From a virus: a stretch of 50,643 nt of DNA. The position numbers and the translations under genes were made by a program. Positions 3,033 through 46,549 of the stretch are shown here, one piece after another. The stretch spans positions 1 to 50,643 of the IMG/VR virus record IMGVR_UViG_3300037156_000076, one strand, 5' to 3'. Numbering within the stretch: the first letter of the stretch is position 1; every line of letters starts with the position of its first letter. The notes under the pieces are model-generated. The model had not been told where the DNA came from. It saw only the letters and a list, made by a program, of their open reading frames with translations, and searched no databases.

Positions 3033-3061
3033 ACAATACCGCCGGTATTGTATAAGGTCAA
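3033..3061 (-). promoter_or_regulatory. pL-like early leftward promoter
   Basis: The minus strand reads TTGACC (3061-3056), a 17-bp spacer, then TATTGT (3038-3033). Operator oL1 covers the -10 and spacer and oL2 overlaps the -35, so repressor binding should block it. It would start transcription near 3026, into the boxA leader and the leftward operon. Confidence 0.75.
3034..3050. promoter_or_regulatory. Repressor operator oL1
   Basis: CAATACCGCCGGTATTG is a perfect odd-length palindrome with 8-bp arms around a central C. It matches the operators beside the repressor gene at 5641-5706 and overlaps the pL -10. Confidence 0.8.
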
Positions 3062-3075
3062 TACCTCCGGTCATG
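3059..3075. promoter_or_regulatory. Repressor operator oL2
   Basis: CAATACCTCCGGTCATG shares the left arm and core of oL1. Its centre is 25 bp away, the same spacing as between the sites at pR. It overlaps the pL -35 and the base just upstream. Confidence 0.7.
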
Positions 3076-3092
3076 TTATTTTCACACACCCA

Positions 3093-3119
3093 CAAAAAAG
3101 CCCGCTCAGTCGGCGGGCT
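3093..3119 (-). terminator. Intrinsic terminator, second of tandem pair below the immunity operon
   Basis: On the minus strand AGCCCGC and GCGGGCT form a 7-bp stem with a seven-base loop, followed by six T. It lies between the end of the repressor operon and pL, and should stop repressor-operon transcription from entering pL. Confidence 0.8.
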
Positions 3120-3159
3120 CATCTATCAGGTCAGGCGGGGAGGGCGAATCGCAGGCAAT

Positions 3160-3184
3160 AAAAAGCCCGGTGGTTGGCCGGGCT
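3160..3184 (-). terminator. Intrinsic terminator at end of the immunity operon
   Basis: The minus strand has a stem AGCCCGG/CCGGGCT with a seven-base loop and a run of five T. It starts at the stop codon of the membrane-protein gene. With the copy at 3093-3119 it makes a tandem stop. Confidence 0.85.
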
Positions 3185-3716
3185 ATTTGTCTTTTGGGGA
3201 TTGCAGAGCTGTTAGTTTTTTTCCGAGCTGCTTGCTCCTCTGAGCCCGCTCATAAACCTTGTTCTTGAAGTCGGCTAGTTCCCGGCTCTCGCCCAAAATC
3301 AGGAATAGGCTCGCCATGCTTACGCCCAGGCTGGAGCCCGTGAAAATGGTGATTAGATGGTAGACCTTCCAATTTCCAGTTGAAAATAGAAGACCAAAGC
3401 CAATGATCAGCGCCGATGCCGCATAGAACAATATCGCGAACTGGATTTGACGGAGTTTTGCTCTGACCGTCTCGGTTATCCTTCGTCGCTCGCTGCCCGT
3501 AATTCCTTTGATTTCCCTCAATCCATTGAAGTTAACCCATAGCTGAGTGGCGAATGTAAGCGGAATCAAAAATACAGAAATCAGCCCCCACTGAACGGAT
3601 GGCGGGGACGCCTGATCAAGTGACGAAATGATGTAATGGGCGAGAATCCCGCCCATAGCGGCGCAAAGCAGCACTGCAAGCGTGCCGCCACCCGTCCATC
3701 CGCTTTGGTTTCTCAT
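3183..3716 (-). CDS. Four-helix inner-membrane protein in the rexB position
   Basis: 177 residues with four hydrophobic segments (about 11-30, 43-62, 92-111 and 119-141). A basic cytoplasmic-type loop around 66-90 contains GSERRRI, and the C-terminal tail is short and charged. Lambda RexB, as I recall it, has the same pattern: two helices, an Arg-rich loop, two helices, short tail. The start lies one base after the stop of the 354-residue gene (TGA-T-ATG), so the two are translationally coupled. Transcription should come from pRM through the repressor. A pore or exclusion role is inferred from topology and position; I see no sequence motif that proves it. Confidence 0.75.
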   Translation of the reverse strand: MRNQSGWTGGGTLAVLLCAAMGGILAHYIISSLDQASPPSVQWGLISVFLIPLTFATQLWVNFNGLREIKGITGSERRRITETVRAKLRQIQFAILFYAASALIIGFGLLFSTGNWKVYHLITIFTGSSLGVSMASLFLILGESRELADFKNKVYERAQRSKQLGKKLTALQSPKDK

Positions 3717-3717
3717 A

Positions 3718-4782
3718 TCACAGATCGTCCGCAGTTATTGCTGGATCAGCATCTCCCTGTCTGAGCTTGCCAACCAACCAGCCGTGCATTTTATGGTACA
3801 GAATCCCTTCGTCCAATAGTCCATTTATCAATTTTGTAACTGAAATTGGACCGGAAAGACGTAAGTCAGCCCCTTTGATCTCGCCCCCGCCAGCCAGTTC
3901 AATCCGTACGTCCGCTTCCTCTGCGTGCCGAAGCGAGGTCGCAATATTGTCAATTACGATCTGTCCAACCCTGGTTGTTTGTCGCAGGTAAGTAATTTCA
4001 AGACTGACCTTGAGGTTAGCATCATCCAGGTCCTCTTCAAGGTCTAGCCTATTAAACCAATCAGCCCCCATAGCAGCTTTAATTACATCACCCGCAAAGC
4101 CGGTGGGAAAAAAACGAACCCGACGAGCATTCACTTCCACCTCATCATCTGTACGCGTCTGAGGCTCAGGCTGCCGCTCTCCTTCTGGAATCTCTTGCGC
4201 AGTGGTGATCGGTGCGCCAATTTGTATCTTTTTCACCGGGGCTCTAGCTATCCGCTCGTAGGTCTCCTGTGAAGGCTGATCCTGCAGAATGATCGCAGTC
4301 CCGATAGTTACGCCGCCAAAGCTGCCGATTAGCCAGCCAAGATGAGCCTCAAGCTCCCTGGATCTAAGCTGGCTTGATTGAAGCACCACGAGGTGATTTT
4401 CGAACACGCCGAAATACAGAAACGAGTCTACGAACTCCCGCCTATGACGCTCTCTGTCAGCAGGGCCTTCTATATTGTTAAGCGCTTCATTGGTAAATGC
4501 GTCCAGCGCGTACGAGTCGGCGTCCTCATTGAGCGTGATGTAAGCCTGGCTGCGACCTGGCTCAAAATAGAGCATCTGGCAAAACAGCATACCGCTGTAC
4601 TCGCGCTTATGATTTACGACCCGGAAGCTGTCGGCGTCAGCATTTACAATCTCTTTACGGTGACCGACTTTATGCGCAGGGCTTTCATCCGCAAACACTC
4701 TTGATAGTATTTCCTGAAGATTCCCACCTCCGCTTATCACTGCTCGTTTGTAGTGAATAGTTTTTGTTACAGACTCAGCCAT
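3718..4782 (-). CDS. Cytoplasmic protein in the rexA position
   Basis: 354 residues, no signal or membrane segment apart from a weakly hydrophobic stretch at 149-166. The central region (195-220) is a Pro/Glu/Gln-rich linker, so two domains are likely. A segment at 229-241 reads FAGDVIKAAMGAD and recalls a GDILK..GA segment of lambda RexA; this is a by-eye comparison only. The gene starts 50 bases after the repressor gene and is coupled to the membrane protein downstream. The stretch looks AT-richer than the structural genes, as expected of a cargo gene. Expression in the lysogen is inferred. It could instead be an unrelated lysogenic-conversion gene. Confidence 0.7.
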   Translation of the reverse strand: MAESVTKTIHYKRAVISGGGNLQEILSRVFADESPAHKVGHRKEIVNADADSFRVVNHKREYSGMLFCQMLYFEPGRSQAYITLNEDADSYALDAFTNEALNNIEGPADRERHRREFVDSFLYFGVFENHLVVLQSSQLRSRELEAHLGWLIGSFGGVTIGTAIILQDQPSQETYERIARAPVKKIQIGAPITTAQEIPEGERQPEPQTRTDDEVEVNARRVRFFPTGFAGDVIKAAMGADWFNRLDLEEDLDDANLKVSLEITYLRQTTRVGQIVIDNIATSLRHAEEADVRIELAGGGEIKGADLRLSGPISVTKLINGLLDEGILYHKMHGWLVGKLRQGDADPAITADDL

Positions 4783-4832: not shown

Positions 4833-5630
4833 CTACAAATCCCCGCCACGCCAGATCACCTGGCCAGTGATGCGGTGCTCGTATATCTCGCCGTCAGGCA
4901 ATACCTGATCGGGGTACTTAGACTCATCCGGGTTGTCGCTCTGGATAATCCAGGAGCTGCCATGTTTGATGAGGCGCTTTACCAGCGTGCCTTTTTCTTG
5001 ACTCTCCAGAACAAATATCCCGCCATCCTTTGGCTCGATACGCGACCCGTCTACTAGCAGTACGTCGTGGTCGCTGATCGTTGGCCACATGCTTTCGCCA
5101 TGGGCATAGATCACCTTGAGGTTCTTCGGATTAACCCCCTTGATTCGTAGCCAGTCGCGCTTGAACGCCAAGGTGTTGCGGAGGACTACGTGCGTGTTGT
5201 CGTACCCATTGCCGGCAGCAGCCTTGGCCGTGTACTGATCAACAAAGGCGAAGTCGTCCCAGTTGGTAGTGACAGGCTCACCTACCTTAAGCGGTACAAC
5301 ATTTTCTGCGCCCGCGGTCTCGGCTCGATCCACCACAACCGAAAGGGACGAGGCCATGCCTTCAAGCTGGTCGGCTAGGGTAGGGCTGAATTCCGAGACA
5401 GGCACATGGAGTGCTCTTGCGAAAACTGTCGCAGCACGAAGGCTTAATGCGGTTCGCCCATTCATGAAATGACTGACCGCGCCCTGGGTAACCCCTTCGC
5501 CCAGTTCGGCGGCGATCTTTTCCTGGGTCAGCTTAAGCTCTGCGCGCTTCTTCATGAAAATCGCTTTCAGCCGGGCGCTGTCTAGCAGCTGCCAGTCTGA
5601 GAGAGGGAGTCTTCTGGAGTCTTTAGTCAT
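4833..5630 (-). CDS. cI: CI-like prophage repressor with S24 peptidase domain
   Basis: 265 residues. Residues 31-80 form an XRE-type helix-turn-helix (LTQEKIAAEL, then QGAVSHFMNGR). The C-terminal half is a LexA/UmuD-type self-cleaving domain with the catalytic Ser in GESMWPT (Ser180), Lys in LVKRL (Lys218), and a probable Ala139-Gly140 cleavage point in AAAGNG. It should bind the five 17-bp operators at 5641-5706 and 3034-3075 and be inactivated in the SOS response. There is no Shine-Dalgarno sequence; the predicted pRM start is only a few bases before the ATG, so the mRNA may be leaderless. It heads an operon with the two rex-position genes. Confidence 0.92.
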   Translation of the reverse strand: MTKDSRRLPLSDWQLLDSARLKAIFMKKRAELKLTQEKIAAELGEGVTQGAVSHFMNGRTALSLRAATVFARALHVPVSEFSPTLADQLEGMASSLSVVVDRAETAGAENVVPLKVGEPVTTNWDDFAFVDQYTAKAAAGNGYDNTHVVLRNTLAFKRDWLRIKGVNPKNLKVIYAHGESMWPTISDHDVLLVDGSRIEPKDGGIFVLESQEKGTLVKRLIKHGSSWIIQSDNPDESKYPDQVLPDGEIYEHRITGQVIWRGGDL

Positions 5631-5639
5631 CGCTGAATG

Positions 5640-5667
5640 ATATTACCTGCGGTATTCGCGCAACCAA
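5640..5667 (-). promoter_or_regulatory. pRM-like repressor maintenance promoter
   Basis: Minus strand: TTGGTT (5667-5662), 16-bp spacer, TAATAT (5645-5640). The start would be near 5633, about three bases before the repressor ATG at 5630, as with the leaderless lambda cI message. Operator oR3 covers the -10 and spacer; oR2 abuts the -35, where bound repressor could activate. Confidence 0.6.
5641..5657. promoter_or_regulatory. Operator oR3 (over pRM)
   Basis: TATTACCTGCGGTATTC matches the palindrome consensus at 12 of 17 positions. It is the most divergent of the three sites here and overlaps pRM, like lambda OR3. Preferential binding by Cro is inferred. Confidence 0.65.
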
Positions 5668-5681
5668 TATCGCCGGTATTG
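5665..5681. promoter_or_regulatory. Operator oR2
   Basis: CATTG-type arms: CAATATCGCCGGTATTG differs by one base from perfect oL1. It lies between the -35 elements of pRM and pR, with its centre 24 bp from oR3 and 25 bp from oR1. Confidence 0.75.
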
Positions 5682-5708
5682 ACTAGTAGCAATACCGGCG
5701 GTCATACT
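5679..5708 (+). promoter_or_regulatory. pR-like early rightward promoter
   Basis: TTGACT (5679-5684), 18-bp spacer, CATACT (5703-5708). oR1 fills the spacer and -10. It would start near 5715, some 25 bases before the cro start. Confidence 0.65.
5690..5706. promoter_or_regulatory. Operator oR1 (over pR)
   Basis: CAATACCGGCGGTCATA has the consensus left arm and core and sits inside the pR spacer and -10, so repressor bound here should shut pR. Confidence 0.7.
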
Positions 5709-5739: not shown

Positions 5740-5934
5740 ATGCGCCGTATCCCGCTTTCAGAATTTGCCGCAGAACACGGCCATACCAAGGCCGCAAAGC
5801 TGCTCGACTGCACCCAGGGAGCCCTAAGCAAGGCAATCCGTGTTGGTCGAGAAATCATCGTCATATGCGGCGATGACGGAAGCCTTTCGGCCCAAGAGCA
5901 GCGCCCGTTCCCCTCTCAAAAATCAGCCGCTTAA
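5740..5934 (+). CDS. cro: Cro-like repressor
   Basis: 64 residues. Helix-turn-helix around residues 8-33 (AEHGHTKAAKLLDCTQGALSKA) split over the usual Cro spacing, then a short beta-rich tail. It is the first gene from pR, divergent from the CI-like repressor and separated from it by the three operators. It is expected to repress pRM and early promoters during lytic growth. The size and position match phage Cro proteins of Pseudomonas. Confidence 0.85.
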   Translation: MRRIPLSEFAAEHGHTKAAKLLDCTQGALSKAIRVGREIIVICGDDGSLSAQEQRPFPSQKSAA

Positions 5935-10187: not shown

Positions 10188-10468
10188 GCGAATCAATCGA
10201 AGCTTTCGAAGTTTGGCGGAAACAGCAAATCGCCTCACTGGTACGCACTGGGCACCTTGACGCGGCTCGCGCCTTCGAGCAGCTCGGATCTATTCAGGGG
10301 AGCGTCTGGGATTCGGCATGGCAGGCATCCCGCGAGACGCCGGTGATTAAGCGCCCCGAAAAATGCGAGTTCGCCGAGCCTGATGGTTCGTATCACAAAG
10401 GATATCGCCAAGGGATGCGCAGCATGGTCGACGCCATCGAGGCCGCCGGCCTGAAGGTGTCGCAATGA
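10184..10468 (+). CDS. Hypothetical protein, paralogue of 9709-10014
   Basis: 94 residues beginning MSESIEAFEVWRKQQ, with SAWQASRE in the middle and GYRQGMR..VDAIEAAGLKVSQ at the end, matching the neighbour at 9709. I use the ATG at 10184 (overlap with the upstream stop) in place of a longer frame that would cover the lipoprotein end. Function unknown. Confidence 0.7.
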   Translation: MSESIEAFEVWRKQQIASLVRTGHLDAARAFEQLGSIQGSVWDSAWQASRETPVIKRPEKCEFAEPDGSYHKGYRQGMRSMVDAIEAAGLKVSQ

Positions 10469-11397
10469 GCGAATTTTCGGGCGTCGAGCACAACGTAATT
10501 AGCGTCAGTGGTGGCAAGGACTCGACAGCGCTACTACTTCTTGCCATCGAGTTAGGCGTGGGGAATATGCAGGCTGTATTCGCTGATACAGGTAACGAGC
10601 ATCCGCAGACTTACGAGTATCTCGATTACTTGGAGCAGAAGCTGGACTTGAGCATACGGCGTGTTAAGGCAGATTTTTCTCGCCAGATCGCCGGTAAGCG
10701 AGCGTTTGTAGAGGTGAAGTGGAGAGAGATGGGCGTCTCTGAAAGCATAGTTGCCGATGCTTTGGCCGTACTTCAGCCAACTGGAAGCCCGTTTCTTGAT
10801 CTTTGCGTTTGGAAAGGCCGCTTCCCCAGCTCTCAAGCTGCGTTCTGTTCTGAAGAGTTGAAGCGCCTGCCGATCACTACTCAGGTTCAAGACCCTCTGC
10901 TGTCAGTCGGCGATGACGTAGTGAGCTGGCAGGGCGTTCGAGCTGACGAATCTTCACGCCGGGCGCTGCTGACAATGCGCGAGCACAAGAGTACTCACGC
11001 TGGCGGCGGGGAGCTGTGGAACTACCGCCCGATCCTGCAATGGGATGTAGAACAGGTTTTCGCCATGCACAGCAAGCACGGCATCAAGCCGAACCCCTTG
11101 TATGCCCAAGGCATGGGTCGTGTGGGCTGCATGCCCTGCATCAACTGCCGCAAAGACGAACTCCTGGAAATCTCCCAGCGCTTCCCCGATCAGGTGGAAA
11201 AGATTCGCCAATGGGAAGTGATTGTGAGCAAAGCCAGCAAGCGCGGATCAGGAACATTCTTCACCAGCGACGCTCGCGGCCACGGCATCGACGAGCTTGT
11301 CGGTTGGAGCCAAACAGCCCGAGGTGGGCAGCAGTTCGACTTCCTTCGGCAGTGGGATTCCCCCGCCTGTACCTCAATTTACGGGCTATGCGAATGA
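10465..11397 (+). CDS. PAPS-reductase-family (adenine nucleotide alpha-hydrolase) protein
   Basis: 310 residues. The PP-loop SGGKDST lies at 15-21 and FADTGNEHPQTYEYLDYL at 39-56 is the typical second element. Cys128 (AFCSEELKR) and Cys222/225/228 (GCMPCINC) could hold an iron-sulfur cluster as in PAPS reductases and DndC. The family activates a substrate by adenylation and moves sulfur or reduces sulfate; the phage members have no settled role, and both DNA or RNA modification and sulfur metabolism are possible. ATGA coupling to its neighbours places it in the early-middle operon. Confidence 0.85.
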   Translation: MSEFSGVEHNVISVSGGKDSTALLLLAIELGVGNMQAVFADTGNEHPQTYEYLDYLEQKLDLSIRRVKADFSRQIAGKRAFVEVKWREMGVSESIVADALAVLQPTGSPFLDLCVWKGRFPSSQAAFCSEELKRLPITTQVQDPLLSVGDDVVSWQGVRADESSRRALLTMREHKSTHAGGGELWNYRPILQWDVEQVFAMHSKHGIKPNPLYAQGMGRVGCMPCINCRKDELLEISQRFPDQVEKIRQWEVIVSKASKRGSGTFFTSDARGHGIDELVGWSQTARGGQQFDFLRQWDSPACTSIYGLCE

Positions 11398-44917: not shown

Positions 44918-46549
44918 TCAGAGCTGTTTTAGAATTCGTAGGCCGAGCCAGAGAACTACGGTTACGGCCTTGCTGTTGCCGATCGCCTTATAGCGCGGAC
45001 CGTCAGGACATTCACTTGCGGACTTGTTGCGCCAAGGGATTCGCGTGTAATCGTCGGGAAAGCCTTGGAGGCGCTCGCATTCTGTGGGTGTTAATCGGCG
45101 GACGCTGCTGGTAGATACAAGCGCTTCGCTTCCGCCGCCAGCATCTCCAGAAGACGCCCTCAAGCTGGGCAGGCCCTCTCCGTAATCGCTTATCCCTCTT
45201 AGAGCGGCGACAATTGGTTGGCCGCGACCGGTACCGTCCTCACTCCCATCAAAGCCTTCAGCTTTCAGCGTATGCGTAATGTCGCCGGTTATGCATACGG
45301 CGACCTGTCCACCTGCATTTGCATGACTGCCAGCGTGATTCATTGCCCGAAGCGTCGGCGATATCGCCCCGGCGTCTGCGCCATGGTCCTTGCACGAGAA
45401 AGCCAGGACTGCATTTTCCTGCCCGCTATTCCTGCCTAGGGCAAATGCGAGCGAATCACTAACGCCAGGATCTTGCGTACCGTGCACGACGAGCAGTCCG
45501 GCTTCAGCGTCTTGATTGGTTGCGCTACCGGCCGCCTTGCCGTTGGCGTTAAGCGTTCCAGCGATCAAATGTCCAGCCTGAGCCTGATTGTCGTCAGCTC
45601 CGCAAGTCCCTACACCGCAAGCAGTCAGCGCTGATACCGGCTGCACAAAAAAAGTCTCGCTATCGAAGTCGAGTCGCGCATCTTTGGCGGTCAGCGTTCC
45701 GGATCGCTCGATTGAACCGCCGTTACCTGAGCCAAATGCCGGTATTCCACCAAACATGCTGACTGCCGGACCTTCATCGCCCTCGCAATTCATGCAGCCG
45801 TAAGCGCCAAGTTCTTCTCCGAACACTTCCCCGCATCCGCACTGGAGCGCAGGGCCGAAAGGAGCTGTTCCGGTAACGTCCGACCCCTCACCGCGGCGCG
45901 GCGCAGAATCCCGGCGCACGCCTTCTCGCTCAAAAAGTACCTCGACGGGATCGAACCCTCTTCGAGCACTTGCGACAACGAACACACGGCGGCGTCGTTG
46001 GGCCAGGCCGAAATATTGGGCGTCCAAGATCCGCCATGCGATTGTTCTTTTGGGTCCATACACACAACCAGCGTCTGACCACCTTTTCCCTGAAGGCTGC
46101 AGTTCGCAGTCTTCCCCAGCAAGCGCACCAAGAAAGCATCCGAAGGCGTTGCCTTTATCGGAGAGGACGCCGGGGACGTTTTCCCAAACAACAATGGTTT
46201 CATCATCACCGCGGGCGATTCGAACATGGTCAACTGCATCTGCAAGCTCCACATATTTGATGGTTAGGGCGCCGCGAGGATCAAGCATCCCTTGGCGCAT
46301 ACCGGCGACACTGAATGCCTGGCATGGTGTTCCGCCGACTAGCACGTCTGGAGCAGGGATCTTTCCAGTCAGCACCATGGCGGCGAGCTTCGTCATGTCG
46401 CCAAGGTTTGGAATCTTCGGGTAGTGATGGGCAAGTACTGCGCTCGGGAACGGTTCGATTTCGGCAAACCACATCGGCTTCATATCCAGCGGATGCCAAG
46501 CGGTAGTCGCACTTTCTATTCCGGAGCAAATGCTTCCATAGGTCAGCAT
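44918..46549 (-). CDS. DNA (cytosine-5) methyltransferase, Dcm-type
   Basis: 543 residues. Motif I YGSICSGIESATTAW, PCQ (75-77, Cys76) in GGTPCQAFS, ENV at 123-125, QRRRR at 184-188, and late motifs RLTPTECERLQGFP and GNS (524-526). Between motifs VIII and IX is a long region (195-480) with a Cys4 ribbon (237-255) and six repeats of a TLxA-type element. GGAGG is before the ATG. It would protect phage DNA or modify host DNA; specificity unknown. Confidence 0.92.
   Translation of the reverse strand: MLTYGSICSGIESATTAWHPLDMKPMWFAEIEPFPSAVLAHHYPKIPNLGDMTKLAAMVLTGKIPAPDVLVGGTPCQAFSVAGMRQGMLDPRGALTIKYVELADAVDHVRIARGDDETIVVWENVPGVLSDKGNAFGCFLGALAGEDCELQPSGKRWSDAGCVYGPKRTIAWRILDAQYFGLAQRRRRVFVVASARRGFDPVEVLFEREGVRRDSAPRRGEGSDVTGTAPFGPALQCGCGEVFGEELGAYGCMNCEGDEGPAVSMFGGIPAFGSGNGGSIERSGTLTAKDARLDFDSETFFVQPVSALTACGVGTCGADDNQAQAGHLIAGTLNANGKAAGSATNQDAEAGLLVVHGTQDPGVSDSLAFALGRNSGQENAVLAFSCKDHGADAGAISPTLRAMNHAGSHANAGGQVAVCITGDITHTLKAEGFDGSEDGTGRGQPIVAALRGISDYGEGLPSLRASSGDAGGGSEALVSTSSVRRLTPTECERLQGFPDDYTRIPWRNKSASECPDGPRYKAIGNSKAVTVVLWLGLRILKQL

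Follow-up and report, generated by a model that had tools for sequence, protein, structure and literature searches.

The window analysed here is the whole of virus record IMGVR_UViG_3300037156_000076, a 50,643-base temperate phage whose genes include an integrase, a terminase, an antirepressor and a P-like helicase loader; every database phage with DNA resembling that of its first 25 kb is a Pseudomonas phage. On its minus strand, a 354-codon gene is followed by a 177-codon gene, with a single base (position 3717) separating the stop of the former from the ATG of the latter (Table 1). A CI-type repressor gene lies 50 bp upstream of the 354-codon gene, and two hairpins come directly after the pair. 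A sequence-only reading of this DNA had described a soluble 354-residue and a membrane 177-residue protein, one base apart, downstream of a CI-like repressor and ahead of tandem terminators; the ORF calls and the flanking features bear out this description. Terminator-like sites number 13, against 4.5 expected. The window additionally carries a PAPS-reductase-like gene (10465-11397) and a DNA methyltransferase gene (44918-46549), with possible DNA-modification or cargo functions.

Table 1. Features of the two-gene module and the surrounding immunity region (window positions).
Feature	Position	Strand	Basis or remark
OL, two operator-like sites (3035-3049 and 3060-3074)	3035..3074		AATACCGCCGGTATT type
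Predicted PL promoter inside OL	3033..3061	-	TTGACC-17-TATTGT, consensus match only
Second of the tandem intrinsic terminators, closing the CI-rexA-rexB unit	3098..3120	-	hairpin and T run
First intrinsic terminator, overlapping the end of the rexB-like stop codon	3164..3184	-	hairpin and T run
Four-helix membrane protein in the RexB position, 177 aa	3183..3716	-	phrog_16807 and phrog_4510 matches, model, charge pattern
Soluble protein with predicted RexA fold, 354 aa	3718..4782	-	ORF call, phrog_3482 match, RexA 8TWQ as top PDB fold match
CI-type repressor, 265 aa, presumed first gene of the operon	4833..5630	-	HTH_3 and Peptidase_S24
OR, three operator-like sites (5642-5656, 5666-5680 and 5691-5705)	5642..5705		palindrome pattern
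Predicted PR promoter inside OR	5679..5708	+	TTGACT-18-CATACT, consensus match only
Cro-type regulator, first gene rightward of OR	5740..5934	+	phrog_35, transcriptional repressor, E 1.3e-7

The unit is flanked on both sides by operator-like sites. A 15-bp palindrome, AATACCGCCGGTATT, occupies positions 3035-3049, and the other four OL and OR sites differ from it by at most three mismatches. Where chance would give 0.9 matches to this pattern, the window has 13, including four weak three-mismatch singles elsewhere; the start-to-start spacing is 25 bp in OL and 24 and 25 bp in OR. The order along the window is therefore OL, terminators, gene 2 (rexB-like), gene 1 (rexA-like), cI, OR and cro. 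This immunity layout is lambda-type, with the full lambda rexAB arrangement, and the pair occupies the place expected of a RexAB-type module, together with the CI repressor in a prophage immunity region. A promoter scan of the window reports no promoter-like minus-strand site between cI and gene 1. From the OL-to-cro layout, we infer that the pair is co-transcribed with cI in the lysogen, where it would be switched on from the maintenance promoter at OR.

Beyond the OL side of the unit, a conserved non-coding element of the minus strand (2834-2990), lying in the presumed PL leader, is 86-94% identical in 17 Pseudomonas phage records. It begins with a boxA-like motif, CGCTCTTTAACAA (2965-2977), which recurs exactly in 18 IMG/VR stretches, and it folds into a three-way-junction-like structure with compensatory change in 5 of 42 predicted pairs across five sequences. 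The element has no Rfam match and is possibly an antitermination (nut/put-like) RNA. Other Pseudomonas phages that share it (L162, L163, L164 and L165), with a conserved stretch matching about 2834-2977 of the window at 87-94% identity, carry different small hypothetical genes between the element and the repressor, which makes the rexAB position look like a cargo slot of these phages.

The 177-residue protein matches phrog_16807 (E 9.4e-10) and phrog_4510 (E 3.6e-7). Its structural model is confident (pLDDT 86.7) and contains four helices (residues 9-32, 50-66, 74-111 and 116-172), of which the last two extend as long charged helices. Lysine and arginine residues are concentrated in the central loop (residues 67-91, eight residues) and in the C-terminal tail (residues 147-177, nine residues); loop 1 has none and loop 3 a single one. 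This distribution predicts that both termini are cytoplasmic, the same N-in/C-in topology as modelled for RexBpp of Pseudomonas putida. The model and the positive-inside charges thereby agree with the four-helix membrane protein described from sequence alone. Among the most conserved positions of the family, E76 and R79 form an E76-x-x-R79 motif in the central cytoplasmic loop, while R157 is the third such position. The protein gives no match to PF15968 (RexB) at E values up to 10, and hhalign against lambda RexB yields a probability of 0.1 percent. A fold search returns only generic helical bundles, with Z up to 9.0 where about 13 is advised for bundles, and no specific solved or viral fold; lambda RexB is absent from the structures listed in that search. 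Antibody matches in a PDB sequence search were set aside as noise. A four-TM membrane gene directly downstream, a further feature of RexAB-type modules, is thus present here by the one-base gap, the model, the charges and the arrangement at 86 of 89 related loci.

The 354-residue protein belongs to phrog_3482, matching it with an E value of 6.8e-95 over residues 3-344 (profile positions 5-341 of 344). All three PHROGs matched by the two proteins are listed as of unknown function, and Pfam, NCBIfam and PADLOC searches of both proteins return nothing usable. Lambda RexA and RexB are placed elsewhere, in PHROGs 12654 and 14878 and in Pfam PF15969 and PF15968, respectively. Specifically, the window protein gives no Pfam match to PF15969 at E values up to 10, the family that lambda RexA itself matches at 1e-97. 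Using alignments of up to 87 rows, hhalign against RexA alone and against three- and five-sequence RexA alignments yields probabilities of at most 0.3 percent, and against CarolAnn gp44 it gives no signal (probability below 1 percent). PDB sequence searches do not match RexA either. A profile-profile Smith-Waterman comparison with the RexA alignment scores below the mean of column-shuffled controls. The GDVIK..GA segment, which had been said to recall RexA, does exist at residues 231-239; given this sub-shuffle score and the null hhalign result, it is not evidence of kinship and was discarded as such. The suggestion of a family remote from lambda RexAB is supported, as HMMER, hhalign and the custom profile alignment detect no sequence relation. 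The claim made here is accordingly one of RexAB-like action and RexA fold, not of membership in PF15969 or PF15968.

Evidence for the RexA fold comes from structure. The AlphaFold2 model of the 354-residue protein, built from 17 sequences, is of moderate quality (pLDDT 70.8, pTM 0.67), with residues 191-226 and 248-266 poorly modelled. In a Foldseek search of the PDB, two chains of lambda RexA (8TWQ) rank first, with E values of 9.5e-5 and 1.9e-4 and a probability of 0.99, and the next match follows at 6.2e-2. VIA-align gives Z 11.0 with RexA 8TWQ over 159 residues at 3.6 Å; Chl4, CENP-N and Iml3 follow at Z 6-7 and RdgC at Z 6.1. Iml3/Chl4 and RdgC are also the fold relatives reported for the RexA crystal structure (PMC11077077). 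Whole-chain superposition on RexA is bad (TM 0.26-0.33, rmsd about 20 Å), meaning that only parts of the chain underlie the match. One possible reason is a differing relative orientation of the two domains; RexA was crystallised in a closed form and is proposed to open on DNA. On this moderate-confidence model, the first protein of the pair has a RexA fold, and with it the family phrog_3482 can provisionally be assigned to that fold. The sequence-only reading had proposed comparing both proteins with RexA and RexB by HHpred or structure prediction: the structural comparison puts RexA at the top for the first protein, while hhalign is null and the RexB side finds no specific fold match.

Relatives of the aligned family are encoded by at least 172 IMG/VR contigs. 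A membrane ORF lies directly downstream of 86 of the 89 distinct gene-1 ORFs, with gaps of -41 to +25 bp, and has four hydrophobic segments in 78 cases and three in eight. The three unpaired ORFs comprise two near contig ends and one (L117) that is an ORF-calling miss, its downstream frame being visible by eye. The gene pair is no chance pairing: at 86 distinct loci the two genes have homologues arranged in this order. Across 51 non-redundant pairs, the distance matrices of the two proteins correlate with a Mantel r of 0.91, which none of 2000 permutations reaches; this shows no partner exchange, with the proviso that tight linkage alone would also give a correlation. Values of dN range over 0.12-0.31 in the first gene and over 0.29-0.48 in the second; saturation of dS prevents the computation of dN/dS.

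Among named phages, Escherichia phage Perceval, Shigella phage SfIV and Acinetobacter phages Ab105-2phi, Ab1656-2 and phi1_092021 carry clear homologues of both window genes in the same order, with about 33-42% identity for gene 1. A search of other prophages for the pair beside repressors, proposed along with the original reading, has a divided outcome. The pair lies downstream of CI in Perceval and in the Acinetobacter phages, where one small gene intervenes, and gene 1 is labelled 'DefenseFinder protein' in one of these CI-adjacent records; in SfIV (L023:2405-3827) the pair stands beside holin/endolysin genes instead. The SfIV membrane gene is shortened to 108 aa and adjoins a transposase gene, so this module is possibly damaged. 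Bacterial genomes with the family include Pseudomonas, Oceanospirillum, Pantoea, Marinobacter, Morganella, Chromohalobacter, Acinetobacter and Psychrobacter, and it also occurs in metagenome-assembled genomes of Methyloprofundus and Cytophagales; within one Pseudomonas genus group, 9 of 399 genomes have a match. Of 5,426 complete E. coli genomes, 42 carry the Perceval pair (L022:4001-5551) at 99% identity or more; LF82 is one of them, and in one case the pair is on a plasmid. Among the matches listed, both genes bear the annotation 'hypothetical'.

Two further groups extend the family. A second RexA-like family in Pseudomonas (L060, L062-L069), found on viral contigs of 51-64 kb, has a first protein of about 354 aa followed by a membrane protein of 193-195 aa, and several of its pairs lie near S24 repressors. 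At profile level, hhalign reveals distant homology between this group and the window family (probability 99, E 7.6e-18). More distant is a 309-aa RexA-like ORF in a Pseudomonas-type genome (L061:983-2400), which matches the family profile at E 1.8e-6 and whose end is overlapped by a 163-aa membrane ORF; this type of pair is not found in the viral contigs.

Comparison with known systems reveals shared anatomy and divergent sequence. As in lambda rexA-rexB, the window pair lies between OL and OR behind CI, has the same gene order and a short gap, and combines a RexA fold, by model, with a four-TM partner; the resemblance in position, order, coupling and topology proposed from sequence thus holds in gene order, topology and operator flanks. 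The lambda pair differs in that neither protein shows sequence or profile similarity to its counterpart, in the lengths of the RexA-like protein (354 aa in the window, 279 in lambda) and the membrane protein (177 and 144 aa), and in the long charged C-terminal helix of the window membrane protein, unlike lambda RexB. A parallel in host and anatomy is RexABpp of Pseudomonas putida prophage P1 (PP_5643/PP_5644), shown experimentally to be a RexAB-type system in January 2026 (PMC12894663). There, both genes are required for defence, RexApp binds DNA nonspecifically and dimerises, and RexBpp associates with itself; when RexApp is in excess, growth arrests and cells become permeable to dye, effects that depend on RexBpp and come without measured depolarisation (PMC12894663). 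Both pairs are CI-proximal two-gene units of Pseudomonas prophages, with a RexA fold by structure and a four-TM partner lacking a sequence link to RexB; P1 differs in having two extra genes that separate the pair from CI. Of the seven residue positions published for RexBpp (W25, F35, L55, T103, S145, G153 and Y181), at most three are matched at any fetched locus. The second Pseudomonas family, itself related to that of the window, was considered here too, as a candidate relative of RexABpp. CarolAnn gp44/gp43 and Sbash gp30/gp31 are likewise two-gene RexAB-type defences made of RexA-like soluble and membrane proteins, and the CarolAnn pair is CI-adjacent, as in the window. These two come from actinobacterial phages, and hhalign links the window proteins to neither CarolAnn gp44 nor gp43. 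The olg1/olg2 exclusion genes of Fc02 (PMC9936078) were rejected as a parallel, their arrangement being different.

Together, these features suggest that the pair is a RexAB-type abortive-infection or exclusion module of a temperate Pseudomonas phage, consisting of a RexA-fold sensor and a membrane effector; we put the probability of this reading at about 0.75. Weighing against it are the missing sequence link to RexA and RexB, the moderate model with its poor whole-chain superposition, the unspecific fold result for the membrane protein and the SfIV pair beside lysis genes. The predicted fold, gene order, topology and OL/OR position favour the interpretation first reached from sequence; its appeal to the GDVIK segment and its view of the system as not yet described in Pseudomonas do not hold. 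Working precedents with the same anatomy are provided by four sensor-plus-membrane-effector systems, namely lambda, Sbash, CarolAnn and RexABpp (PMC12894663, PMC6426596). By its anatomy and fold, the window pair should act like RexABpp, and we infer every functional step from there. Both proteins would be made together with CI from the OR maintenance promoter; the RexA-fold protein would dimerise, clamp DNA without sequence specificity and sense an intermediate of an invading phage. It would then trigger the membrane protein, probably through the basic central cytoplasmic loop carrying E76-x-x-R79 and the basic C-terminal helix. The membrane protein would oligomerise and compromise the inner membrane, such that growth and phage production stop.

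The main rival reverses the two roles: the soluble RexA-fold protein would be a toxic anti-phage effector that the membrane protein keeps inactive at the membrane until infection. Such an arrangement is documented for gp30/gp31 of mycobacteriophage Butters (discussed in PMC12894663), and fixed pairing with strict co-inheritance fits a toxin and its restrainer equally well. We nevertheless consider it unlikely here, as the four-TM protein has a strongly conserved basic loop and tail of its own, and the systems of lambda, Sbash, CarolAnn and P. putida all use the membrane protein as effector.

A role in the phage's own lysis-lysogeny switch, with the RexA-fold protein acting on operator or promoter DNA, the membrane protein signalling the energy state of the host, and exclusion secondary or absent, would suit the position between OL and OR and the finding that RexA of lambda is a DNA-binding protein that biases its CI/Cro switch (PMC11077077). 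The module is, however, found beside various repressors and, in SfIV, among lysis genes away from CI, and is therefore not tied to one switch; moreover, RexApp did not alter repressor-gene expression in P. putida (PMC12894663), which together render a switch function quite improbable. It is hardly probable that the pair serves an unrelated conversion or housekeeping task, in which a RexA/RdgC-like fold would be a nonspecific DNA-binding scaffold for recombination control, held by a membrane anchor. RdgC and kinetochore proteins do share the fold and a sequence link to RexA is absent, but RexA clearly outranks RdgC (Z 11.0 versus 6.1), and the window family always has a membrane partner, whereas RdgC is not known to have one.

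The earlier suggestion of a RexAB family possibly not yet described in Pseudomonas phages is outdated and its novelty weakened, since RexABpp of P. putida P1 had already been published (January 2026; PMC12894663); the kind is known in Pseudomonas, and the sequence family of the window appears undescribed. What the analysis adds is the model-based placing of a large, hitherto unlabelled phage family in the RexA fold, the membrane protein that invariably accompanies it, and the breadth of the family's distribution. More tentatively, and with some doubt on our part, RexA-fold DNA sensors may form one wide prophage-defence superfamily that retains the sensor fold while its membrane effector has been exchanged for four-helix proteins of no common homology. 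On this view RexAB would be a general design, a sensor with an interchangeable effector, and the window family would form a branch of its own, distinct in the type of effector.

The P. putida study counted only five RexAB-like systems (PMC12894663). If the present reading is true, phrog_3482 and its partners would enlarge this set by over 80 distinct pairs, the hosts being Pseudomonas, Acinetobacter, enterobacterial and marine. The trigger of RexAB-type defence is still not exactly known 70 years after Benzer's rII work, and these pairs would offer many independent cases for mapping what the sensor detects and how it opens the membrane protein. Genes annotated as hypothetical today, such as those of the module carried by the E. 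coli genomes described above, would likewise gain a suggested function.
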